Shown: positions 7,765 to 55,185 of the stretch, piece by piece | Numbering within the stretch: position 1 is the stretch's first letter | Layout: each line of letters opens with the position of its first letter | Origin: Sipunculus nudus | Lineage: Eukaryota > Annelida > Sipuncula > Golfingiida > Sipunculidae | DNA: 64,000 bases | Assembly: GCA_026874595.1 (NCBI GenBank) | Contig: CM049322.1 | Location: 47,029,840 to 47,093,839, forward strand | Direction of reading: 5' to 3' | Translations under genes and position numbers: made by a program | Notes under the pieces: model-generated | The model's input: only the letters and a program-made list of their open reading frames with translations | Databases searched by the model: none | Told to the model about the DNA's origin: nothing

Positions 7765-8705
7765 AATCCTCACGTGTACCCTGTAATATTCTTCACAATT
7801 ACCTTGTTATATTTTTCAAGGTGACCCTGCAGTATTCTTCACGGTGACCCTGTAATATTTTTCGTGGTGACTCTGTAATATTTTTGATGTAGACCCTGTA
7901 AACTTCCTCACGGTGACCCTGTAATATTCTTCATAGTGACCCTGTAATATTCTTCACGGTTACCGTTTAACATTCTTCACGGTTACCCTGTAATATTCTT
8001 CATGGTGTCCCAGTAATATTCTCCACGGTTATATTGTTAAACACTTCACTGTAACCCTGTAATATTCTTCACAATTACCTTGTTATATTCTTCACGGTGA
8101 CCCTGTCATATTCTTCTTGGTAACCCTTTAATATTCTTCACGGTGACCCTGTAATATTCTTCAAGTGTACCTTGTAATATTCGTCACAATAACCTTGTAA
8201 TATTCGTCACAATAACCTTGTAATTTTCTTCATGGTGACCCTGTAATATTCTTCACTGTTACCATGTAATATTTTTCACGGTTACCGTGTAATATTCTTC
8301 ACGGTGACCCTGTAATATTCTTCACGGTGACCCTGTAGTATTCTTCAAGTGTACCTTGTAATATTCGTCACAATAACCTTGTAATATTCGTCACAATAAC
8401 CTTGTAATTTTCTTCATGGTGACCCTGTAATATTCTTCACTGTTACCATGTAATATTTTTCACGGTTACCGTGTAATATTCTTCACGTTGACACTGTAAT
8501 ATTCTTCACGGTGACCCTGTAATATTCTTCACGTTGACACTGTAATATTCTTCACGGTGACCCTATTATATTCTTCACGGTGACCCTGTGATATTTTTCA
8601 CGGTTACACTGTAATATTTTCACTGTTACGCTGAATTATTTTTCACAGTTACACTGTAATATTTTCACTGTTACGCTGAATTATTTTTCACAGTTACACA
8701 GTAAT
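7765..8705. repeat. 23-bp minisatellite, first block
   Basis: Tandem, moderately diverged copies of a unit close to TAATATTCTTCACGGTGACC plus CTG, roughly 40 copies. It lies about 2.7-3.6 kb upstream of the lysozyme start and shows no coding potential. Confidence 0.85.
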
Positions 8706-9324
8706 ATTCGCACAAGGCAGTTTAGTGCGATGTAACGTGACTACTAGACCTAAAGGGACCAGTTGCCCCTTCTCCATTAACTTGTTTGCGTAAGAATATT
8801 AACCCAAACAGTCACATTTGTATACAGCTTCAGTATAAAATGACTCAGGTCTACAGCTTTGTCTGAATGTTTTATGAACCTTTCTCAAAGACCACCTGTC
8901 TAATAAAACCACCGGCCTATTAATTAGGACCCCACTCTCAGCAAGGTCCTCGTCTCCGATCCTCCATGGTATAACTTGAACAGTTGTAAACCGATTTTAT
9001 CTTCTTTCTTAAATTATTTTACCATCATGCGGTTGAATCTATATATAATAAAATATTTTAAACAGACCTTTCTTCAGTACAGTCTGATAGGGATATGTAC
9101 ATGTTCCTGTTAGGGCCTTTTTTTCAAAGATACTTAAATTTATTTCAGATGATCTGTGTCTTTTTCAAGATATGAATGTGGGGTTAAGAATATTCAGCTT
9201 TTTAAAGTTCATAATAAGGCTTTAAACATATATCAATATGTAATTAATTAATCATGATTCATAGGGGATACTATTTTAAGGGAAGGGGTAAAGAAGTCAC
9301 ATCGTAACAAATTGCCTTCAGGAT
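8706..9324. other. unique sequence interrupting the 23-bp minisatellite
   Basis: About 620 bases without the repeat and without a gene. It either inserted into one array or separates two related arrays. Confidence 0.5.
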
Positions 9325-9905
9325 AATATTCACCACGGTTACCCTGTAATATTCTTCACGGGAATACTACAGTATTTTCAAGTTTGCACTATACGATTTT
9401 TTTCCCGATTAAACTGTGGTGTTCTTCCCGGTTACACTGGATTAATCTTCACGGTTTCATTGCAGTATTCTTCATGGTATAACTGTAATATTCTTTAAGG
9501 TTACACTGTAACATTCCTAACAGTAACACTGCAGTATTCTTCGTGGTAACATTGTAATATTCTTCCCGGTTACACTGCAGTATTTTACGGTTACACTATT
9601 ATAGTTTTCTTGGCTATACTGTAATTTTTTTCACGGTTACACTGTAATATTCTTCACAGTTACACTGAAGTAATATAACGGTTACACTGCAATATTCTTC
9701 GCGGAAACACTGTAGTATTTTTCGCGATTACAATGTAATATTCTCTACGGTTACACAGTAATTTTCTAAACGGTTACACTGCAGATTTTTCACGGTCACA
9801 CTGTAATATTCTTCACAGTTTCACTGCAGGATTTTTCAAGGTTATACTGTAGTATTCACACGGTCACATTTATTTTTTTCACGGTTATACTGCCGTATTC
9901 CTAAC
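9325..9905. repeat. 23-bp minisatellite, second block
   Basis: More diverged copies of the same unit as at 7765-8705, with the CACGGTTACACTGTAATATT variant predominating. Confidence 0.8.
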
Positions 9906-11406: not shown

Positions 11407-13157
11407 ATGGTTACCCTCTTTGGACTTCTTGTTTTGACTGCTGTTGCTTACGGTAAGTTTTAAACAAGTTAAAATAGAAACGATAAGGCTATATTAAGAT
11501 ATTTGTTTCAGTTTCTAAATAGTTTTTTTTAATTAAAATCTGATTGAAATCACCCTTAATTCAGAAACAAAAAGCAACATACTAAAATGTACGCAAAGGT
11601 TTATGACGATTCAACCAGGCAATTGACACATAATTAAAACCGTTTATCCTCGAATACAGGTCACAGTGACCTAATTTTATGTTTCCTTTGAATATAGCAT
11701 AGGGCCTCCTAAATAATTATATTCTGAATATGAGATATCTAATTGAAAGATTATAATCAGGAAATATGAAGAAACAAATTAACCTCTGGATAACCGGATC
11801 ATCTAACAATCTCTATATTGAAACAAAAATATATTACTTTATTGCCCTAAAAGGTGAAGGGGACGCAGGTTTGGAGGATGCCTGCAAGTCTACCTTGAAA
11901 CAATGCTATTGATCTGTCCCTTAACATTTTACAATACCTTGTAATAATGTCCAGCTTAATGTCGCAGGATTATATGATTTATCCCCTGACATTTGCTAAA
12001 TTTGAACTTACACAGACCATTTACATTTTGTAAAAAGTATGATATATAGCCAGTCTGAGAAGGCCAAACTTTTATTAGTTTCATGTTAATTTTAATACAA
12101 AACCTCAACATTTTAATTATATGTGATAATACATGATGTTTCTTAATCTTTAAACTCTTTAAATATCGAAACTACACTATATTGTATTTTTACCTTCAAA
12201 CTGAAAATACACCACAAGTTTATTGACAATAGAATTATTATGTTAATATAAAAGAATCTTCTTCAACAACTGTCTGGTAGATGATTTGATGTGACCTTTG
12301 ACCTTTTATCTCCTGTCCAGGCGAGGACGTCGGGTGCAGTGATACGTCCAGGGACGGGCGTGACGGCACGTGCGTCCAAAGGGGATGCTGTAGATTTGAC
12401 TTCCAAGTGACTGACGCCAATCTATGCGACGGATCAAACGAGGTGTGCTGTTACCAAGACAACACATGTGAGAACAATTTTTGAACAAACAGTTTTATAA
12501 CAGATAAATAATCTGTTTACAGTGCAACACAACATCTTAGGATGGGATAAATAACATAAACAAATACTGAGTGGTCATGTAAACATAGTCATACATATAT
12601 GTTATTATATGTATTTTATATATTATTTCTGTATGAAATGTGTTGAGAATGAAATGCCTGGTCATTTTTTTTTTGTTTTAATAACACTCTAAAATTAAAG
12701 TTCTTCTGATGTATGTTTTGAACAAGGTTTTTCAAGGTGATAATTTAAAAATTTAATGATATAGGATTTATGCTTGCTTTATTCTTGGCCTGATAACAGG
12801 TGGCACTGGCGGCGGCGGAAGTGGTCAGTACACGTGTTACGGTGACATGACGCTGCTAAGCCCAACTGGCGCCAGCTCCGACACAGCCAGACAGGACGGC
12901 CTCTCCTATACCGGTCAGTGAGCTTACATAAACATACGTACATACACCCCTATATACACCTAAGATACAATATTAAAAGTTATGCCATACCAATACAGGA
13001 ATTAGTATTGCGGTGATATCATATGTAAGACATAGCGCTGAGTGAAAAACAAAGACATAGTAGTATAGTGTTAAAAAATAAGAAATAATATTATATTTTG
13101 ATTTTTCTATGCAGAAAATAATCGAATCGCCTTCGGTACAATATAAACATACATACT

Positions 13158-13224
<67 letters not shown>

Positions 13225-16200
13225 ATATTTATTTATATATATAAGTTTAAGCTAATATATTTATTCTACTAAATTTTTATATCTCTATATGCTATTTTTC
13301 TATGCTTTTTCTATACCATGGGAAGGACCAGCCCCATCAGCAAACCTCCCTATAGGCTTACGTATTGCCTTTGCACATCATTAAATGGAGATATACGCCT
13401 TTGCAAGCCTTCATCATTGTTAGTTTAACACTGAAATTTTATATATCGAAGGTTTCAGGCCCCACCCCGCATTCATCCGTACCTTTGCCACAGCCACGTC
13501 AACAACTAACATGTGATTTCACTTAAAGGGGCCTTATCACCTATACAGTACGTTAGGTGATTTTGAAAAAGAAAAACAATTGGAAACCCGCCACAGCCCG
13601 GATATATGGCTCATTCGACATTTTTGTGAATAATAATCAAAATATACATACACAGGGAGTAAATAAAGAGATATAAGTTGATTGCGGCTGATTTTTTTTT
13701 TTTTTTAATTGTATTTTTTGACAGGAGTCCGTGCTTCCAACACCATGGTCTCTAACGACATTGATGAATTGGACAGAATCAGGAACTGTTATGACCAGGT
13801 CGGACGGAAACACTGTAAGTAAATCAATCCTGATACCTTTAAACCACAAGACAATAGGATCAAGTACATACTGAATAGACTTACGTAACCTGCATATAAA
13901 TAAATAATAGGAGACATCAATATATACTGCCGGAATGTAGGTCTACATACTTCGGATAAAGAAACAAGAACCGACTTTAAAAAAGTGATGCGATAAAATA
14001 TGCTAACTATGACGATATTAAACGGTTGCTTCAATTTGTCGAATACTAAACCTGAAAAGCTGGTATTAAGGAGAGGAGACCTACTACTTGCTGTTTACGA
14101 CTACCAAAAAAATGGTCGCTTACCTGTCTTGGATTGTCGTCCAGGTTTGAACCCCGCCCTGATCGCTGCCCTGGCCAGCCGTGAGTCACGTGGTGGAAGG
14201 CTGCTCCGTAGCACAAACGGCTGGGGTGACTGTGGCAGCGGAGAATGCAGAGCCTACGGCATCCTCCAAGTAAGTGACTGTGTCATCGTTAAGTATAGGT
14301 CTGTGACTGTGTAACCGTAAGGTGAAGGTCAGCGATTGTGTCTCTATAAGGAAAAGGTCAGTGACTATGTCTCAATAGAGTATTGGTCAGTGACTGTGTC
14401 TCTATAAAGAATAGGTCAGTGACTGTGTCTCTATTAAGTATAGGTCAGTGACTGTGTCTCAATAGAGTATAGGTCAGTGACTGTGTCTCTATAAAGAATA
14501 TGTCAGTGATTGTGACTCCATAAAGTATAGGTCAGTGACTGTGTCTCTATCAGGAAAAGGTCAGTGACTATGTCTAAATAGAGTATAGGTCAGTGACTGT
14601 GTCTCTATAAAGAATATGTCAGTGATTGTGACTCCATAAAGTATAGGTCAGTGACTGTGTCTCTATCAGGAAAAGGTCAGTGACTATGTCTAAATAGAGT
14701 ATAGCTCAGTGACTGTGTCTCTATCAGGAAAAAGTCAATGACTGTGTCTCTATAAAGTATAGGTAAGTGACTGTGTCTCTATCAGGAAAAGGTCAGTGAC
14801 TGTGTCTCTATAAAGTATAGGTCAGTGACTGTGTCTCTATCAGGAAAAGGTCAGTGACTGTGTCTCTATAAAGTATAGGTCAGTGACTATGTCTAAATAG
14901 AGTATAGGTCAGTGACTGTGTCTCTATAAAGAATAGGTCAGTGACTGTGTCTCTATAAAGTATAGGTCAGTGACTGTGTCTCTATCAGGAAAAGGTCAGT
15001 GACTGTGACTCTATAAAGTATAGGTCAGTGACTATGTCTAAATAGAGTATAGGTCAGTGACTGTGTCTCTATAAAGAATAGGTCAGTGATTGTGTCTCCA
15101 TAAAGTATAGGTCAGTGACTGTGTCTCTATAAAGTATAGGTCAGTGACTGTGTCTCTATCAGGAAAAGGTCAGTGACTGTGTCTCTATAAAGTATAGGTC
15201 AGTGACTATGTCTAAATAGAGTATAGGTCAGTGACTGTGTCCCTATAAAGAATAGGTCAGTGACTGTGTCTCTATAAAGTATAGGTCAGTGACTGTGTCT
15301 CTATCAGGAAAAGGTCAGTGACTGTGACTCTATAAAGTATAGGTCAGTGACTATGTCTAAATAGAGTATAGGTCAGTGACTGTGTCTCTATAAAGAATAG
15401 GTCAGTGACTGTGTCTCTATAAAGTATAGGTCAGTGACTGTGTCTCTATCAGGAAAAGGTCAGTGACTGTGACTCTATAAAGTATAGGTCAGTGACTATG
15501 TCTAAATAGAGTATAGGTCAGTGACTGTGTCTCTATAAAGAATAGGTCAGTGATTGTGTCTCCATAAAGTATAGGTCAGTGACTGTGTCTCTATAAAGTA
15601 TAGGTCAGTGACTGTGTCTCTATCAGGAAAAGGTCAGTGACTGTGTCTCTATAAAGTATAGGTCAGTGACTATGTCTAAATAGAGTATAGGTCAGTGACT
15701 GTGTCCCTATAAAGAATAGGTCAGTGACTGTGTCTCTATAAAGTATAGGTCAGTGACTGTGTCTCTATCAGGAAAAGGTCAGTGACTGTGACTGTATAAA
15801 GTATAGGTCAGTGACTATGTCTAAATAGAGTATAGGTCAGTGACTGTGTCTCTATAAAGAATAGGTCAGTGACTGTGTCTCTATAAAGTATAGGTCAGTG
15901 ACTGTGTCTCTATCAGGAAAAGGTCAGTGACTGTGTCTCTATAAAGTATAGGTCAGTGACTATGTCTAAATAGAGTATAGGTCAGTGACTGTGTCTCTAT
16001 AAAGAATAGGTCAGTGACTGTGTCTCTATAAAGTATAGGTCAGTGACTGTGTCTCTATCAGGAAAAGGTCAGTGACTGTGACTCTATAAAGTATAGGTCA
16101 GTGACTATGTCTAAATAGAGTACAGGTCAGTGACTGTGTCTCTATAAAGAATAGGTCAGTGACTGTGTCTCTATAAAGTATAGGTCAGTGACTGTGTCTC

Positions 16201-19200
16201 TATAAAGTATAGGTCAGTGACTGTGTCTCTATCAGGAAAAGGTCAGTTACTGTGTCTCTATAAAGTATAGGTCAGTGACTATGTCTAAATAGAGTATAGG
16301 TCAGTGACTGTGTCTCTATAAAGAATAGGTCAGTGACTGTGTCTCTATAAAGTATAGGTCAGTGACTGTGTCTCTATCAGGAAAAGGTCAGTGACTGTGA
16401 CTCTATAAAGTATAGGTCAGTGACTATGTCTAAATAGAGTATAGGTCAGTGACTGTGTCTCTATAAAAAATAGGTCAGTGACTGTGTGTCTATAAAGTAT
16501 AGGTCAGTGACTGTGTCTCTATAAAGTATAGGTCAGTGACTGTGTCTCTATCAGGAAAAGGTCAGTGACTGTGTCTCTATAAAGTATAGGTCAGTGACTG
16601 TGTCTCTATCAGGAAAAGGTCAGTGACTGTGTCTCTATAAAGTATAGGTCAGTGACTATGTCTAAATAGAGTATAGGTCAGTGACTGTGTCTCTATAAAG
16701 AATAGGTCAGTGACTGTGTCTCTATAAAGTTTAGGTCAGTGACTGTGTCTCTATCAGGAAAAGGTCAGTGACTGTGTCTCTACAACGTATAGGTCAGTGA
16801 CTATGTCTAAATAGAGTATAGGTCAGTGACTGTGTCTCTATAAAGAATAGGTCAGTGACTGTGTCTCTATAAAGTTTAGGTCAGTGACTGTATCTCTATC
16901 AGGAAAAGGTCCGTGACTGTGTCTCTATCAGGAAAAGGTCAGTGATTGTTTCTCTATAAAGTATAGGTCAGTGACTATGTCTAAATAGAGTATAGGTCAG
17001 TGACTGTGTCTCTATAAAGAATAGGTCAGTGACTGTGTCTCTATAAAGTATAGGTCAGTGACTGTGTCTCTATCAGGAAAAGGTCAGTGACTGTGTCTCT
17101 ATAAAGAATAGGTCAGTGACTGTGTCTCAACAGAGTATAGGTCAGTGACTGTGTCGCAATAGAGTATAGGTCAGTGACTGTGTCGCAATAGAGTATAGGT
17201 CAGTGACTGTGCCTCTATAAAGTATAGGTCAGTGACTGTGTCTCTATAAATTATAGGTCAGTGACTGTGCCTCTATAAAGTATAGGTCAGTGACTGTGTC
17301 TCTGTCAGGAGAAGGTCAGTGACTATGTCTAAATAGAGTATAGATCAGTGACTGTGTCTCTATAAAGAATAGGTCAGTGACTGTGTCTCTATAAAGTTTA
17401 GGTCAGTGACTGTGTCTTTATCAGGGAAAGGTCAGTGACTATGTCTAAATAGAGTATAGGTCAGTGACTGTGTCTCTATTAAGAATAGGTCAGTGACTGT
17501 GTCTCCATGAAGTATAGGTCAGTGACTGTGTCTCCATAAAGAATAGGTCAGTGACTGTGCCTCTATAAAGTATAGGTCAGTGACTGTGCCTCTATAAAGT
17601 ATAGATCAGTGACTGTGTCTCTATCAGGAAAAGGTCAGTGACTATGTCTAAATAGAGTATAGATCAGTGACTGTGTCTCTATAAAGAATAGGTCAGTGAC
17701 TGTGCCTCTATAAAGTATAGATCAGTGACTGTGTCTCTATCAGTGAAAGGTCAGTGACTATGTCTAAATAGAGTATAGGTCAGTGACTGCGTCTCTATAA
17801 AGAATAGGTCAGTGACTGTGTCTCTATAAAGTATAGGTCAGTGCATGTGTCTCTATAAAGAATAGGTCAGTGACTGTGTCTCTATAAAGAATAGGTCAGT
17901 GACTGTGTCTCTATCAGGAAAAGGTCAGTGACTATGTCTAAATAGAGTATAGATCAGTGACTGTGTCTCTATAAAGAATAGGTCAGTGACTGTGTCTCTA
18001 TAAAGTTTAGGTCAGTGACTGTGCCTCTATAAAGAATAGGTCAGTGACTGTGTCTAAATAAAGTATAGGTCAGTGACTGTGCCTCTATAAAGTATAGGTC
18101 AGTGACTGTGTCTCTATCAGGAAAAGGTCAGTGACTATGTCTAAATAGAGTATAGGTCAGTGACTGTGTCTCTATAAAGAATAGGTCAGTGACTGTGTCT
18201 CCATAAAGTATAGGTCAGTGACTGTGTCTCCATAAAGAATAGGTCAGTGACTGTGCCTCTATAAAGTATAGGTCAGTGACTGTGCCTCTATAAAGTATAG
18301 ATCAGTGACTGTGTCTCTATCAGGAAAAGGTCAGTGACTATGTCTAAATAGAGTATAGATCAGTGACTGTGTCTCTATAAAGAATAGGTCAGTGACTGTG
18401 TCTCTATAAAGTTTAGGTCAGTGACTGTGTCTTTATCAGGGAAAGGTCAGTGACGATGTCTAAATAGAGTATAGGTCAGTGACTGTGTCTCTATAAAGAA
18501 TAGGTCAGTGACTGTGTCTCCATAAAGTATAGGTCAGTGAATGTGTCTCTATAAAGTATAGGTCAGTGACTGTGTCTCTATCAGGAAAAGGTCAGTGACT
18601 ATGTCTAAATAGAGTATAGATCAGTGACTGTGTCTCTATAAAGAATAGGTCAGTGACTGTGTCTCTATAAAGTTTAGGTCAGTGACTGTGTCTTTATCAG
18701 GGAAAGGTCAGTGACTATGTCTAAATAGAGTATAGGTCAGTGACTGTGTCTCCATAAAGTATAGGTCAGTGACTGTGTCTCCATAAAGAATAGGTCAGTG
18801 ACTGTGCCTCTATAAAGTATAGGTCAGTGACTGTGCCTCTATAAAGTATAGATCAGTGACTGTGTCTCTATCAGGAAAAGGTCAGTGACTATGTCTAAAT
18901 AGAGTATAGATCAGTGACTGTGTCTCTATAAAGAATAGGTCAGTGACTGTGTCTCTATAAAGTTTAGGTCAGTGACTGTGTCTTTATCAGGGAAAGGTCA
19001 GTGACTATGTCTAAATAGAGTATAGGTCAGTGACTGTGTCTCTATAAAGAATAGGTCAGTGACTGTGTCTCCATAAAGTATAGGTCAGTGAATGTGTCTC
19101 TATAAAGTATAGGTCAGTGACTGTGTCTCTATCAGGAAAAGGTCAGTGACTATGTCTAAATAGAGTATAGATCAGTGACTGTGTCTCTATAAAGAATAGG

Positions 19201-19789
19201 TCAGTGTCTGTGTCTCTATAAAGTTTAGGTCAGTGACTGTGTCTTTATCAGGGAAAGGTCAGTGACTATGTCTAAATAGAGTATAGGTCAGTGACTGTGT
19301 CTCTATAAAGAATAGGTCAGTGACTGTGTCTCCATAAAGTATAGGTCAGTGAATGTGTCTCTATAAAGTATAGGTCAGTGACTGTGTCTGTATCAGGAAA
19401 AGGTCAGTGACTATGTCTAAATAGAGTATAGATCAGTGACTGTGTCTCTATAAAGAATAGGTCAGTGACTGTGTCTCTATAAAGTTTAGGTCAGTGACTG
19501 TGTCTTTATCAGGGAAAGGTCAGTGACTATGTCTAAATAGAGTATAGGTCAGTGACTGTGTCTCCATAAAGTACAGGTTCATGATTGTATTACAGTATTC
19601 TATTGATTTAATTTCTATTTTTCAACGTCACGTATATTAACAAACTATTGTTACATCATTATAATGCCACGAATCGTAAGTTACCAAAATATAATATATA
19701 TTATACATGTTAGATGTACACAGGCCAACTGAATAAATTGTAAGAAAAAATATTAACATTGTTAAAACCAATAATATATATATATATAT

Positions 19790-19853
<64 letters not shown>

Positions 19854-22800
19854 AGACCGATGTTTTAGTTATATAGCGTGTTTGTTTTATAGCAACAGTG
19901 CTGTAAAACTTCATAGATTCAGAGTTGCACGCATGTGAATTTATATATTTTTAACGATTATTATCAGTCTTCTTAATGCTTACTTTCATTTTTCTCTTTT
20001 TTTTACATCTTTTAGTCTTGTGCAATTTGTATTGTTACAACTATATGGCATATGTTAATTATTATAAAAGAATTGTACATTATAAAGCACGTTTGAACAC
20101 TCTCAGGGTGAAATTATAATAATTATATCACTAATAATAAAAAATAATATAAATAACAATAATAGTAATAATAAGATTTGTTCTAATCATATATTTTGTG
20201 TTTACAGTGTGACATCTACACATCGGGCCTCGGCAGCCGCTGTACCGCCTATCCCTGGGACAGCTGTGAACACATGGATATGATGATTAATGAGGTGTTC
20301 CTGCCCAAGGTCCGTGGGGTCCAGAATAAACACCCAAGCTGGCTGAAGGAGAGACAGCTCCAAGGTAAATATCCCGGTCAAAAACACGTAATATGACGTG
20401 GTTACTCCCCATGCTGTAGTGACTCTCCATGACGTACTAACCTACCGTGATGTAGTGACTGTCCCTAATGCAGAGATTCTCCGTGATGTAATGACTCTCT
20501 GTGATGTAATGAATCTCCGTGATGTAGTGACTCCGTGATGTAGCGACTCTCTGTGATGTAGTGATTCCCCATGATGTAGTGACTATCCTTGATGAAGTAA
20601 CTCTCCTTGATGTAGTAACTCCCCATGATGTAGTGACTCTCCGTGATATGTGACTCTCCTTGATGTAGTGACTCTCTGTGATGTAATGAATCTCCGTGAT
20701 GTCGTGTCTGTCCGTGATGTCGGACTCTCTGTGATTCAGTGACTCTCGATGATGAAGTGACACCCCATGATGTAGTGACGCTCCACGATGTAGTGACTCT
20801 CCTTGATGAAGTAACTCTCCTTGATGTAGTAACTCCCCATGATGAAGTGACTCTCCTTTATAGAGTGGCTAACCATGATAAATGCTTCTCCTTGATGTAG
20901 TGACTCTCCATGATGTAGTGACTCTCCCTGATGCAGTGTCTCTCCTTGATGAAATGACTCTCTATGATCTAGTGACTCTCTTAGATGTAATGAATCTGCG
21001 TGATGTAGTGTCTGTCCGTGATGTCGGACTCTCTGTGATGTAGTGACTCTCGGTGATGAAGTGACACCCCATGATGTAGTGACGCTCCACGATGTAGTGA
21101 CTCTCCATGATGTAGTGACTCATCCTGATGCAGTGTCTCTCCTTGATGTAATGACTCTCTGTGATATATTGACACTCGATGCTGAAGTGACACCCCATGA
21201 TGTAGTGACGCTCCACGATGTAGTGACTCTCCTTGATGAAGTAACTCTCCTTGATGTAGTTACTCCCAATGATGAAGTGACTCCCCTTTATAGAGTGACT
21301 CACCATGATTAAATGCTTCTCCTTGATGTAGTGAATCTCCATGATGTAGTGACTCTCCCTGACGCAGTGTCTCTCCTTAATGAAATGACTCTCTGTGATG
21401 TAGTGACTCTCTATGATGTAATGAATCTGCGTGATGTAATGTCTGTCCGTGCTGTCGGACTCTTTGTGATGTATTGACACTCGATGATGAAGTGACAACC
21501 CATGATGTAGTGACTCTCCTTGATGAAGTGACTCTTCATGATGTAGTGACTCTCCGTGATGTAGTGACTCTCCGTGATGTAGTGACTCTCCGTGATGTAG
21601 TGACTCTCCGTGATGTATTGACCCCAGGTGGTGAAGTAACACTGCGTGACGTTATGATCCCCCATGATGTGGTGATTCTACGTGAAGCATTGATTGTGTA
21701 TGACCTAATGATTCTTCATGACGAAGATATTCTCTAAAACGCAGTGACTAAATGACTGTTGTAATGACTCTTTCATGGCGTACCAACCTATCATGATCAA
21801 ATAACTCAACTTGATAATGTAACTCTCCGTGACGAAGAGACTCTACATGATGAAGTGAAGCTCCATGATGTAGTGACTCTCCGTGATGTGTGACTCTCCG
21901 TAATGTAGTGACTCTCTGTGATGTAATGAATCTCCGTGATGTAGTGTCTGTCCGTGATGTCGGACTCTCTGTGATGTAGTGACTCTCAGTGATGAAGTGA
22001 CACCCCATGATGTAGTGACGCTCCACGATGTAGTGACTCTCCTTGATGAAGTAACTCTCCTTGATGTAGTAACTCCCCATGATGAATGGATTCTCCTTTA
22101 TAGAGTGACTCACCATTATTAAATGCTTCTCCTTGATGTAGTGACTCTCCATGATGTAGTGACTCATCCTGATGCAGTGTCTCTCCTTGATGTAATGACT
22201 CTCTGTGTTGTAGTGACTCTCTGTGATGTATTGACACTCGATGATGAAGTGACACCCCATGATGTAGTGACTCTTCATGATGTAGTGACTCTCCGTGATG
22301 TGTGACTCTCTTTGATGTAGTAACTCTCCTTGATGTAGTGACTCTCCGTGATGTAGTGACTCTCCGTGATGTATTGTCCCCAGGTGGTGAAGTAACTCTG
22401 ACACCCCATGATGTGGAGATTCTAAGTGAAGCATTGATTGTGTATGACCTAGTGATTCTTTATGAAGGAGATATTCTGTAAAACGCAGTGACTAAGTGAC
22501 TGTTGTAATGAATATTTCATGGCAAACTGACCTACCATGATTAAGTAACTCAACTTGATAATGTAACTCCTCGTGCCGAAGAGACGCTACATGATGAAGT
22601 GAAGCTCAATGAAGTAGTGACACTTTGTGATGCAGTGACTCTCCGTGACGTTGTTACTTTCCAAGATGTAATGACTCTTTGTGACGATATGACCCTCCAT
22701 GACATGGTGATTCTATAGAGAGCATTGATTGCATAAGACCTGGGGTTCCATCTGACGTAATTATTCTCTATTACGCAGTGACTTAGTGGCTGGTGTCATG

Positions 22801-24640
22801 ACTCTGCATGACATAGCAACGTGCCGTTATGTAGTGACTCTCCGTGATGTAGTGACTCACTGTGATGTTGTGACTCTCCGTTATGTCCTGACTCCCCGCG
22901 ACGTAGGGAATCTCCGAGAAGTAATGACCCTTCGTGATGTGGAGATTGTACATAAAGTATTGATTGTGTATGAACTAGTGTTTCCTGATGACGAAGTTTT
23001 TTAACTGTTAGGAGTGACTATGTAACTGATGTAATGTCTTTCCATAACGTACTAACTTACCGTAGTTAAGTGACTCTGCGTGATGTAGTGACTCTCCGTG
23101 ATGTAGTGACTCTCCATTATGAAGTAACTCTCTGTGATGTAGTGACACTTTGTGATTTAGTGACTCTCCGTGATGTAGTGATTCTCCGTGATGCAGTGAC
23201 TCCCCGTGATGCAGTGACTCTCCATCATATTGTGACTTTCATGACGTAGTGACTATGGATGATTTAGTGCTCCAATGATTTAGGGACTCTCAGTGATGTA
23301 GTGACCTTCCGTGATGTGATGAATCTCTGTGACGTTATAAGCCCCCAATGATGCGGTGATTCTACATGAAGTATGTGAATGTATTGCTTGTATATGACCA
23401 AGTGATTCCTTTTAAGGTAATTTTTTCTCTATTTCACAGTGACTAAGTAAAAAATTTAATGACTCTCCATGATGTTCTGACATCCCTTTACTCTCTTTGA
23501 TGTACTGTCTCTAGTTGATGTAGTGACTCATTGTGATGTACATATTGACTCTAGGTGGTAAAGTGACTCCTTATGATGTAGCATAACTCTCCATGATGTA
23601 GTGATTCTCCATGCTGTAGTGACACTCTTTGATGTAGTGACTCTCCGTGATGTAATGACTCTCCAGGATGTAATGACTCTCCGTGACGATATGACCCTCC
23701 ATGATGTGATGAATCTACATAAAGCATTGATTGTATATGACCTAGTGATTCCATTTGACTTAATTATTCTCTATTACGCAGTGACTTAGTGGCTGGTGTC
23801 ATGAGTCTGCATGACATAGCAACGTGCCGTTATGTAGTGACTCTCCGTGATGTAGTGACTCACTGTGATGTTGTGACTCTCCGTTATGTCCTGACTCCCC
23901 GTGATGTAGTGAATCTCCGCGAAGTAATGACCCTTCGTGATGTGGAGATTGTACATAAGTATTGATTGTGTATGAACTAGTGTTTCCTAATGACGTAGGT
24001 TTTTTTTTTTACTATTAAGAGTGACTATGTAACTGATGTAATGTCTTTCCATAACGTACTTACTTACAGTACTGAACGTGAAGTCGAAAATCAGCCGAGG
24101 AGTTCTTTTTCCCCGCGGTCAGCCCCCGTCCAGGGTCAGCGCTTTGCATGCCTAACTGAAAAGCCGTGCCCAACGGCCGTGTATCAACCACAGTGGAGAC
24201 GGACGTTATGGCGTTCATAGGGTTATGACCCGACCATCTGTATGGCTGCATAACAAGACCAGCAGGCACTGTAGACACTGGGTCTTGATTACAGCATTAT
24301 ATTATTGTGTGCTACTGCACTGTAAAAAAATCTCCCGACCTTATTTGACCTGCAAAAACTCTTTGACATAATTACATGCTGCAACGTTTGTGAGTATATC
24401 TTTCACACTGAGTGCAAAGTATATAGCTACTTAATGATAACGTATGATTGGTTTTCCTTATATATTATTAAAACTTCATGTTACTGTCTTTTTCAACCAG
24501 GTGGAGTTGCTGCTTACAATTTCGGCGTCAGTAACGTGCAGTCTTGGGAGCGACTTGACATTGGCACGACCGGAAATGACTATTCTAATGACGTCATGGC
24601 GCGTGCGCAGTATCTGATCGACGAGTACGGATGGGAATAA
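11407..24640 (+). CDS. goose-type lysozyme, secreted, with N-terminal eight-Cys module
   Basis: Seven coding exons: 11407-11452, 12321-12467, 12800-12913, 13725-13814, 14145-14269, 20208-20364 and 24501-24640. All junctions are GT-AG and in phase; they total 819 bases, 272 residues plus stop. The enzyme is predicted to cleave peptidoglycan between MurNAc and GlcNAc outside the cell. Residues 1-16 are a signal peptide. Residues 21-65 form a module C-x11-C-x4-CC-x11-C-x6-CC-x5-C, followed by a Gly/Ser linker. From about residue 77 the g-type lysozyme domain runs to the end, with YGDMT, the catalytic Glu146 in SRES, Asp161 in NGWGD and Asp176 in LQCD; a [18 protein letters not shown] match lies near the C terminus. 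Between Asp161 and GILQ there are about four more residues than in goose lysozyme, with two extra cysteines (162, 167). No AATAAA was found soon after the stop. Introns 5 and 6 are mostly satellite. Confidence 0.94.
13161..13221. repeat. (TA)n microsatellite in lysozyme intron 3
   Basis: About 30 AT dinucleotides between exons 3 and 4. Confidence 0.95.
14270..19576 (+). repeat. 29-bp minisatellite filling lysozyme intron 5
   Basis: Units begin GTCAGTGACTGTGTC and end mostly in TATAG, AATAG or AAAAG. The first unit starts on the first base of the intron (GTAAGTGACTGTGTC), so the real splice donor is monomer 1. The span is 5307 bases, exactly 183 x 29, so there is no net insertion or deletion. 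Four common variants (ending AAAGTATAG, AAAGAATAG, CAGGAAAAG, and the GACTATGTCTAAATAGAG type) follow each other in higher-order blocks of about 4-6 monomers. The first three monomers are the most diverged. Each unit begins GT and ends AG, creating AG|GTCAGT at every junction. Confidence 0.95.
19773..19851. repeat. (TA)n microsatellite in lysozyme intron 5
   Basis: A long TA run with one GA interruption, between the 29-bp array and exon 6. Confidence 0.95.
20393..24060. repeat. 18-bp minisatellite in lysozyme intron 6
   Basis: The unit is close to GTGATGTAGTGACTCTCC. The array begins about 28 bases into the intron; copies are regular to about 22.4 kb and more diverged after that. Larger blocks recur, for example about 20.76-21.3 kb resembles 21.9-22.3 kb, and about 22.78-23.04 resembles 23.77-24.05 kb. 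Because 18 is a multiple of three, long periodic frames stay open on both strands (such as minus-strand 20962-21642 and 21748-22434). They encode only a six-residue repeat and lie inside an intron. Confidence 0.92.
24085..24190 (+). mobile_element. SINE core fragment in lysozyme intron 6
   Basis: The stretch from AGCCGAGG through CCAGGGTCAGCGCTTTGCAT to GTGCCCAACGGCCGTGT matches the body of the SINE at 44851-45008. No tRNA-like head is seen, so the copy is 5'-truncated. Confidence 0.6.
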
Positions 24641-50129: not shown

Positions 50130-50257
50130 AAGGCAAGAATATTGGTTTATTTAGTCAAATTGCCTTTTTGTAAAACTAGCTCCTCCATTGCTTCGTGGTA
50201 GTGGGCGATAATGTGTGAGTTTCGTCGTCCCCGCAACACACAGTGTTATTGCGTTTG

Positions 50258-51053
50258 TAGTCGTCCGTGCGCCTTGTTGTGGTAGTTATAGGCTACATAT
50301 TTGGTTTGAGACTGTAGTCGTCCGTGCGCCTTGCTGTGATAGGTGGAGGCTACATATTTGGTTTGAGACCATAGTCGTCCGTGCGCCTGGTTATGATAGG
50401 CGGAGGCTACATATTTGGTTTGAGAATGTAGTCGTCCGTGCGCCTTGTTGTGGTAGTTGGAGACTACATATTTGGTTTGAGACTGTAGTCGTCCGTGCGC
50501 CTTGCTGTGATAGGTGGAGGCTACATATGTGTTTTGAGACTGTAGTCGTCCGTGCGCCTTCTTGTGATAGGTGGAGGCTACATATGTGTTTTGAGACTGT
50601 AGTCGTCCGTGCGCCTTCTTGTGATATGTGGAGGCTACATATTTGGTTTGAGACTGTAGTCGTCCGTGCCCCTTGCTGTGATAGGTGGAGGCTACATATG
50701 TGTTTTGAGACTGTAGTCGTCCGTGCGCCTTCTTGTGATAGGTTGAGGCTACATATGTGTTTTGAGACTGTAGTCGTCCGTGCGCCTTGTTGTGATAGGT
50801 GGAGGCTACATATTTGGGTTGAAACTGTAGTCGTCCGTGCGCCTTGTTGTGATAGGTGGAGGCTGCATATTTGGTATGAGACTGTAGTCGGCCCTGCGCC
50901 TTGTTGTGATAGGTGGAGGCTACATATTTGATTTGAGACTGTAGTCGTCCGTGCGCCTTGTTGTGGTAGTTGGAGGCTACATATTTGGTTTCGGACTGGA
51001 GTCGTCCGTGCGCCAAATTGTGATAGGTGGAGGCTACTTATTCAGTCAGAGAC
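50258..51053 (+). repeat. 57-bp minisatellite in the retrotransposon leader
   Basis: About 14 copies of a unit starting TAGTCGTCCGTGCGCC and containing GGAGGCTACATATTTGG. As 57 is 19 codons, one frame on each strand stays open (plus 50215-50931, minus 50246-51016), each giving a 19-residue repeat. It lies between the primer-binding site and gag, where no coding is expected. Confidence 0.9.
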
Positions 51054-51347: not shown

Positions 51348-51595
51348 ATGTCGCTGGACGTGAAAAGAGTGCGTGCAGGTGCCCGTGGATGGGCTAACCG
51401 TGCGTCCAAAAATCTGCAACAGCTTGTCGACAAAGCGGACATTGATATTCACTATTTAAGGGATGCTGTTGAGGAGCTGGATAAACGCTTGGATACACTG
51501 GACGATGCTTAGTTTAATGTTGAAATGCAGTTATCCGAGGAGGAACCGTCCGTGGATATTGACGAGGCTGCTGATTTTAGGGAAAAGTGCCGAAT
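51348..51595 (+). pseudogene. gag N-terminal remnant
   Basis: An ATG at 51348 opens a 54-codon frame starting MSLDVKRVRAG and rich in charged helical residues, stopped at 51510-51512. The same frame reads on as acidic sequence (QLSEEEPSVDIDEA) until the 44-bp repeats. It resembles the coiled start of Pao-type gag. Confidence 0.55.
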
Positions 51596-51812
51596 GCTGC
51601 GAATTCTAGCTATGAAAATGATATGTTCCCAGGAGGGATGCTGCGAATTCTAGCTATGAAAATGATATGTTCCCAGGAGGGATGCTGCGAATTCTAGCTA
51701 TGAAAATGATATGTTCCCAGGAGGGATGCTGCGAATTCTAGCTATGAAAATGATATGTTCCCAGGAGGGATGCTGCGAATTCTAGCTATGAAAATGATAT
51801 GTTCCCAGGAGT
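51596..51812 (+). repeat. 44-bp tandem repeat, five copies
   Basis: Identical or near-identical copies starting GCTGCGAATTCTAGC at 51596, 51640, 51684, 51728 and 51772. As 44 is not a multiple of three, the expansion destroys the gag frame. Copy identity suggests it is recent. Confidence 0.95.
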
Positions 51813-52461: not shown

Positions 52462-52998
52462 TGTAAATGCTCCCCTTGTCATAAATCCCATGCCACTGAG
52501 CGCTGCTGGGATCTTAAAAGGTTGTCCCCCGAGGAACGCAAGGACAAAATACAACAAGCTGGACTCTGTTTTAGGTGTATTGTAAAGGGTCACTCTGCTA
52601 AAGAGTGTTTGAAGAAATGTGCTAAATGTAATGGGAGGCATCACCTTTTATTGTGTGGAATACAAGTCACTAAGAAGCCGGAATCTCCTGTACGTTCTCA
52701 ATCAAAATCTAATGCACCAATCCTTGACCTTGATCAAAATACTCAGCAGCTCAGAGCAGCTAGTAATGTTAATATGTCCCACAATTTCCTTGAAAACGTG
52801 TTTTTTCAACAGACGACCTGTGGACTTCTTTCTGGCACTAAAGGGATCCATGAGGCTACAGTGTTATTTGACACGGGTTCTAATAGGTCATATGTGTCTT
52901 CCGCCTTAATTGAAAAAATTGGCCCGGAATGGGTTTCTACTGCCTGGGTCTCTTATTGCCCCTTTGGTTCTAAAAAAATCCTGGTGAATCAAACTTAA
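52462..52998 (+). pseudogene. gag zinc knuckles and start of aspartic protease
   Basis: Three cysteine/histidine knuckles in a row: CSPCHKSHATERC, CFRCIVKGHSAKEC and CAKCNGRHHLLLC. Then follows a retropepsin-like TVLFDTGSNRSYVS with the catalytic Asp-Thr-Gly. The frame stops at 52998. Confidence 0.8.
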
Positions 52999-54376: not shown

Positions 54377-54709
54377 TTGAGTTTTGTGTCAAGGGTATTT
54401 GACCCTTCGGGGTTCATTGCTCCCTTTGTTATGCAAGGGAAATGTTTTTTCCAAGATATCTGGAGAATAGGATTCCTCTCGGATGATGAACGTCCTGATA
54501 ACATGAAGAAACAATTCCTTCAATGGATTAAGGACCTAGAAAAGCTAAAGTCCTGGTATATTCCTAGAACATACTCATATTAGGGTTGGAAAGACAGTCA
54601 TGATATCACTCTTAATGCTTTCGGGGATGCGAGTGAGAAAGCTTTTGGGGCATGTGTGTACATTATAGCCAAGTCAAGGCTCTTTCCCCTTTGCAGTGAC
54701 TGGTTTTGA
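54377..54709 (+). pseudogene. connection region and truncated RNase H
   Basis: SRVFDPSGFIAPFVMQGK followed, after a stop at 54581-54583, by LNAFGDASEKAFGACVYI, the start of the RNase H-like domain. The rest of RNase H is missing, and integrase sequence follows at once. Confidence 0.7.
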
Positions 54710-55185
54710 CCACGCAAGACCTTTATATTGTGCAGATCACCCGAGACACAAGTTTTATGTTATTATTCACGTTTGGAGTGGTGAGGGCTCTGCATATTGA
54801 GCTGGTGAATTCACTGTCATCAGACGATAGCACTTTAGCTTTATGGCGATTTATTTCACGGCGTGGATTGCCTTCTGTATTGTATTCAGATAATGCCAGA
54901 TCATTCAAAGCAGCTTATTGTAAAATGATAAGTATATATTGGACACTTAGTCCCAAGTGGAAATACATAGTTTCTAGGGCCCCCTGGTGGGGAGGATGGT
55001 GGGAGAGATTGGTAAGAACAATCAAGTTAGCACTAAGAAAGACACTAGGTACAAGGGCGCTTACTAGATGCGAATTAGAAACAACTCTACAAGAAGTTGA
55101 AGCAAGCATCATTTCTAGGCCCTTGACATTTGCAGGTGATGATGTATCAGCTACAAATCAGGACTTCACGTTTCCAGCCTGCTGA
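54706..55185 (+). pseudogene. integrase core remnant
   Basis: VVRALHIELVNSLSSDD, YSDNARSFKAAY and WWGGWWERLVRTIK are typical of the Pao integrase (rve) core. The zinc-binding domain and the start of the core are absent, so several hundred residues of pol are deleted between RNase H and here. Confidence 0.85.

Follow-up and report, generated by a model that had tools for sequence, protein, structure and literature searches.

A donor-anchored 29-bp minisatellite in intron 5 of a goose-type lysozyme gene of Sipunculus nudus, probably seeded from the 5' splice site

The minisatellite of human IFI6 (6-16), whose unit is 12 bp, reportedly yields multiple splice donors, an observation attributed to Turri et al. 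in 1995. Later papers cite an IFI6 minisatellite with multiple splice donors (PMC2572611) and describe the use of two downstream repeat units as donors, giving rise to isoforms (PMC4526556). In amphioxus, minisatellite-like tandem duplications of exon/intron boundaries, termed mirages, are described in Adh3, troponin C, the globins BflGb6 and BflGb9, and PGBD5; many of the copies retain AG/GT, the edges of the clusters escape homogenization, regular splicing is reportedly undisturbed, and the BflGb6 mirage has 6 and 3 units in two haplotypes (PMC3087553, PMC3902484). Tandem dual-specific splice sites with RNA evidence of use are found in the human coding genes UBC and VCX3A, and it has been proposed that expansions of this type do less harm, since splicing can remove them (PMC10809524). 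Among molluscs, the fourth intron of the mussel goose-type lysozyme gene MGgLYZ1 contains a tandem repeat (PMC3448621) and an intron of an abalone TSSK1-like gene contains a 27-bp minisatellite (PMC6905558); no boundary array was found for mollusc genes in the open-licence literature. A preliminary description of the locus analyzed here knew of no described gene with such an arrangement. Boundary minisatellites as a kind are already known from the amphioxus mirages, IFI6 and UBC/VCX3A; what is new is the scale of the array, how many genes are affected, and the recurrence at one donor among the members of a family.

The window analyzed is a 64-kb stretch of the S. nudus genome. Enumeration of open splice combinations predicts a goose-type lysozyme of 272 residues, encoded by seven exons at 11407-24640 (Table 1). 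Four combinations are open, differing only in the acceptors of exon 4 (by 3 nt) and exon 7 (by 6 nt). The predicted protein matched swan and goose lysozymes in PDB (E 6e-44 and 1e-43, residues 76-265), indicating that its catalytic domain is related to goose-type lysozymes; the Pfam SLT match (0.0069) was below the curated cut-off. That the 90-nt exon 4 is separate from exon 5 is in line with the extra intron that mussel goose-type lysozyme genes have relative to those of vertebrates (PMC3448621). Use of the donor at 14270 was deduced from the reading frame. The GTCAGT donor of exon 3, pointed out in the preliminary description, was used in all four open combinations. Upstream of the lysozyme start codon lie a 23-bp minisatellite (7770-8709) and a 46-bp minisatellite (9324-9900). 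The window also contains ORFs at 52522-52998 and 54706-55185, zinc-knuckle protein-like and integrase-like, respectively, which may belong to a BEL/Pao-type retrotransposon. Most of a 57-bp repeat (50256-51042, 13.8 copies) is open in a frame on each strand, and a 44-bp repeat (51594-51811, 5.0 copies) is probably recent, since its copies match at 100%. Rfam gave no match in the 64-kb window at gathering thresholds, and a pattern search among viral contigs gave none.

Table 1. Positions, within the window, of the predicted lysozyme exons and of features of the intron 5 and intron 6 arrays.
Feature	Position	Strand	Basis or remarks
Exon 1, coding part of the goose-type lysozyme: start codon, signal-peptide-like	11407..11452	+	Open-frame enumeration; signal peptide by eye
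Exon 2, cysteine-rich N-terminal part	12321..12467	+	Open-frame enumeration
Exon 3, donor CCG|GTCAGTGA	12800..12913	+	Open-frame enumeration, donor scoring
Exon 4, 90 nt; second open acceptor 3 nt downstream	13725..13814	+	Open-frame enumeration
Exon 5, end ...GGCATCCTCCAA, donor CAA|GTAAGTGA	14145..14269	+	Open frame, donor scoring, homology to goose/swan lysozyme
29-bp minisatellite, 183 units	14270..19576	+	Gap-free; higher-order periods of 5, 9, 11 and 16 units
Array unit 1, intron 5 donor predicted to be functional	14270..14298	+	23/29 to consensus
Unit 18, sole later unit with full TAG|GTAAGT donor	14763..14791	+	Donor matrix, U1 pairing
Possible degenerate unit 184, array end	19577..19605	+	16/29 to consensus
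Exon 6	20208..20364	+	Open-frame enumeration, paralog matches
Intron 6 head with 18-bp array	20365..22373	+	First 36 nt fit the array at 17/36 in phase with the donor, at 12 in the next best phase
Exon 7 with stop codon; second open acceptor 6 nt downstream	24501..24640	+	Open-frame enumeration, paralog matches

The minisatellite makes up 89% of the 5938 nt of intron 5, and its 183 units fall into 50 types. The first unit, which reads GTAAGTGACTGTGT, contains the predicted authentic donor. This unit matches the consensus at 23 of 29 positions, and at 18 of the 23 that lie beyond the donor hexamer; the maximum among 58,471 ungapped 29-mers outside the array was 18/29. The donor of intron 5 is thus homologous to the array and in register with it, and the proposal that the first 29 bases of the intron, beginning at CAA|GTAAGT, are the first monomer is borne out. 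The 29 bases before the donor, at the end of exon 5, match the consensus in register at 8/29, and the best match in any phase was 16 against a background mean of 15.5, indicating that the unit holds no recognizable exonic sequence. We found GT at the start of 170 of the 183 units (AT in 12, CT in one) and AG at the end of 179, with both in 167. It had been stated that every later monomer runs from GT to AG, and that about 180 AG|GTCAGT junctions follow one another; the pattern is indeed prevalent, with 169 of the 182 later units starting in GT, but AT and CT starts exist, and the AG|GTCAGT junctions number 161 of 182 (AG|GT, 165 of 182) and are not consecutive.

The array may be compared with the described systems. 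It shares with the mirages that the predicted authentic splice site is itself one of the units, at 14270, and differs from them in that the unit has no recognizable exon part and in its 183 units, against the 6 and 3 of BflGb6; a paralog (L032) and several other genes of this genome, discussed below, are close to the mirages, and a second paralog (L031) resembles them in decayed form. As in IFI6, where units act as splice donors, the minisatellite sits at a donor; here, unlike in IFI6, the units are 29 bp long and the continued frame reaches a stop codon. The sites of an AG|GT array could in principle serve as donors or as acceptors, as in UBC and VCX3A, but the repeats described there lie in coding genes, whereas the present array is intronic. 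The mussel MGgLYZ1 is likewise a goose-type lysozyme gene, and by exon order its fourth intron can be equated with intron 5 of the window.

A search of the genome found ten further places matching lysozyme, and nine of these regions were read. In L032, intron 5 carries 20.9 copies, 94% matching, of ACGGCATCCTACAG|GTAATATAGTACAAC, beginning 14 nt inside the exon. This 29-bp unit joins the final 14 bases of the exon to the first 15 of the intron, and so contains exonic sequence. L031, the sister of L032 on the tree (support 89/87), has the L032-type unit in 5.3 copies that are decayed and match at 70%, the two consensuses being alike at 27 of 29 positions, together with a longer exon-end copy (z 7.3). 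When 24 introns were scanned for copies of their 5' boundaries, copies were found only in intron 5, with z 3.7 in the window, 7.3 in L031 and 15.6 in L032, the match in the window being limited to the intron part; the remaining 5' scores, with intron 3 of L040 left out, were 2.4 or less. Duplications also occur at the 3' boundary. In L031, a 52-bp duplication (z 9.1) covers the intron 5/exon 6 acceptor boundary at 1765-1867, and in L035 the same acceptor is duplicated near the 3' end of intron 5 (z 6.4).

We also searched the genome for three copies of AGGTAAGT in tandem at spacings of 5-35. This motif gave 329 matches, its reversal 384, the permuted motif AGTGAATG 736, and the reversal of AGTGAATG, which is GTAAGTGA and thus itself donor-like as a control, 352. 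Because the controls match as often or more, the idea that arrays across the genome are enriched in donor motifs was rejected. Among the matches listed for contigs 1-3, a manual count gave 17 donor-motif arrays and 15 arrays of AGTGAATG (the latter to 90.6 Mb of contig 3, and 22 with the members of a 140-kb cluster counted singly); the two arrays of the reversed-motif control among the matches listed are not comparable with the others. The 5' flanks were fetched for 22 of the 23 donor arrays counted among the matches listed. Exon ends backed by protein homology were found at the start of the AG|GTAAGT array in five of the 22 flanks: a PKA RI-alpha regulatory subunit (E 1e-25), an ABCC2-like ABCC transporter (9e-10), a SKAP55-like PH domain (PDB E 8e-4, Pfam 0.023), a PIG3-type quinone oxidoreductase (4e-10), and an NCS2 permease (Pfam 8e-5 and NCBIfam 2e-4, both below curated cut-offs, with one unrelated match at 0.62 as the only one in PDB). 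L060 and L061 are two copies of a duplicated gene about 37 kb apart (C3:73793299-73831243), and in each a 22-bp array starts from the same exon end; the exon is identical at 95 of 101 positions between them, the upstream sequence at 69 of 134. In the exon-backed arrays, the unit is made of exon tail and intron head. Where an exon is present, the array periods (29, 29, 38, 42, 30, 42-43, 43 and 22) are not tied to multiples of three; the 42-bp units of L051 are open on read-through, so that use of its copies would be in frame.

The other 15 of the 22 flanks were without a demonstrated exon. An open frame was searched in 13 of them (L044, L045, L047, L048, L049, L050, L054, L055, L056, L058, L059, L062 and L063); L057 has no open frame and L052 is array throughout. 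Pfam matches in the 13, all below curated cut-offs, were to DUF6567 in L047 (0.21) and to G-gamma (0.0085) and HEAT_EZ (0.064) in L055, with further ones in L054 (0.15), L062 (0.022) and L063 (0.029); no others were found. A possible acyl-CoA-synthetase-like character of the frame in L055 found no support in the searches. In a rough estimate, based on about 44,000 sites of the 8-mer expected by chance in 2 x 1.43 Gb and an assumed 10-16 thousand true AGGTAAGT donors, random seeding would place a fifth to a quarter of the AGGTAAGT arrays on real donors. This expectation is close to the 7 of 22 seen, so we claim no targeting to donors.

The lysozyme gene has a further array next to a donor. An 18-bp array with the consensus ATGATGTAGTGACTCTCC extends in several blocks over 20393-23943 and fills much of intron 6. 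Given a GT start, a fit to the donor register as good as that observed is expected in 1.0% of cases over 36 nt and in 9.7% over the first 18 nt, weakly suggesting that this array may be in register with its own donor. Shuffle comparisons among the 29-, 18- and 23-bp arrays of the region gave p values from 0.07 to 0.74; in a second comparison, the values were 0.06 and 0.14 for the 29-bp against the 18-bp unit and 0.50 and 0.04 for the 29-bp against the 23-bp unit. Given these values, a common origin of the three arrays is not claimed.

Our preferred interpretation of the array in intron 5 is a mirage-like minisatellite, anchored at the donor and ignored by splicing. With a probability of roughly 70%, it is a passive minisatellite that arose when sequence at the donor of an old intron was duplicated in tandem, grew by unequal exchange, and was tolerated. 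The duplication at the intron 5 donor would have given the first units, and unequal exchange would then have expanded them to 183. The exon-adjacent donor would still be chosen, and since the other copies lie within the intron, where splicing would remove them, growth would merely lengthen the intron, accounting for its tolerance. Strong similarity between units at lags of 5, 9, 11 and 16 reveals higher-order repeats, and the nearest other unit matches at 27-29 positions for 180 of the 183 units and at 26 or fewer only for units 1-3 (24, 23 and 26). Unequal exchange from which the edges escape typically leaves nested higher-order repeats and divergent first units, and the greatest divergence is expected at an old edge lying at the donor. 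The array has no copies at other loci among the 80 matches listed by a DNA search of the S. nudus genome, all of which fall inside the array itself; this search skips very common words, so its repeat counts are lower bounds. The preliminary description had suggested that the array grew by copying the 5' splice site. Such seeding is supported by the in-register first unit and by the paralogs and further genes whose arrays combine an exon tail with a donor; the lack of an exon tail in the units and a similar repeat away from the donor of a paralog, L034, leave it short of proof for the window. Paralogs and other genes of this genome carry independent boundary-derived arrays; seeding from a 5' splice site thus appears well supported at other loci and is probable for the array of the window.

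The direction of events could also have been the opposite, with an older minisatellite of AG|GT units within intron 5 spreading to the exon edge, where one unit replaced the original donor. The main support for such a capture comes from L034. Its 35-bp units, GTCAGATAACTGTGTAATGCACTATATACACCCAG, resemble the unit of the window (p 0.0005 from 2000 shuffles with loose scoring; 0 of 2000 shuffles as high with strict scoring), although this was one of six units compared and the similarity involves short units compared after inspection. Good 35-bp copies begin about 280-300 nt past the donor of L034, with degenerate traces nearer to it. At about 650-1200 of L034, some 550 nt of unrelated sequence divides the 35-bp arrays, as if inserted. 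It had been held that an array lying away from the donor in a related species would make the seeding idea fail; applied to this paralog, the finding weakens seeding for the window. Capture would also fit the missing exon tail and the end of exon 5, which reads CAA|G in the window as against CAG|G in all eight paralogs in which it was read. L031 and L032, on the other hand, show the direction from donor to array in the same intron, and we consider capture unlikely. We infer that duplication rather than capture made the array, and that splicing uses only the junction 14269/20208.

Considerably less probable is a functional role, put forward in the preliminary description, in which the units serve as decoy donors or as zero-length-exon AG|GT points for recursive (ratchet) splicing and so regulate splicing of the lysozyme transcript. 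The numerous AG|GTCAGT junctions would suit such a role, and so would their scores. By a 5' splice-site matrix, 163 of the 182 later units score at least as high as the exon 3 donor of the same gene, and the predicted true donor outscores all of them except unit 18, a strong AG|GTAAGT. By predicted pairing with U1, 162 of the 182 are more stable than the true donor (-6.4, against a unit mean of -6.7 and -11.3 for unit 18). This order makes the later units plausible donors, and the first, if it is the one used, must be chosen by its position; it also makes it an assumption that the exon-proximal donor wins. The splice-core columns are the least variable of the unit, with a copy-share variation of 1.6% against 11.1% elsewhere, and received 7 of 41 private changes where 11.3 were expected (p 0.09), a pattern that leans towards constraint rather than establishing it. 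Against a functional role, units with AT in place of GT persist in 12 copies, 11 of which belong to two amplified types. The pyrimidine share before the AGs of the units (mean 0.52, range 0.38-0.63) resembles that of the unique part of the intron (0.51) and not that of the six predicted acceptors of the gene (0.62-0.81), so that no tract of the kind expected at ratchet sites is found. The period of 29 is not a multiple of three and a stop at +42 interrupts the frame that continues into the array, so donor use of later units would shift the frame or reach that stop. The published mirages reportedly leave splicing undisturbed (PMC3087553, PMC3902484). The decoy and ratchet proposals are thus unsupported.

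The occurrence of AG|GT within a repeat unit is not unusual in this genome. In 284 kb analyzed with TRF, including the 64-kb window, we found 29 minisatellite arrays, nine of them in the window; AGGT is present in five of the 29, against 5.9 in shuffles, so an AG|GT junction in the unit is by itself unremarkable, and AGGTNAGT is found in one, the intron 5 array, against 0.1 in shuffles. A 29-bp array of GT...AG units also occurs in L011, where no exon was noticed by eye at its start. These observations would allow for a coincidence in which selection halts the array at the coding sequence and its GT register arose by accident, but this is improbable, since the functional donor and the next 23 bases are homologous to the array in exact register, to a degree beyond chance.

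5' splice sites may be a regular birthplace of minisatellites in this genome, affecting many genes and recurring at the same donor within one family, adding kilobases to introns without changing the mRNA, and representing a major route of expansion outside the cephalochordates; we put this forward tentatively, as a doubtful generalization. With 183 similar candidate donors in one intron, and about 21 copies of the exon end and donor in L032, these are natural genes in which to test why the exon-proximal donor wins, if it does so. The series of boundary duplications in the paralogs, from fresh in L032 to decayed in L031, is useful for understanding how introns lengthen, and also how new introns may arise from duplicated AG|GT sites.
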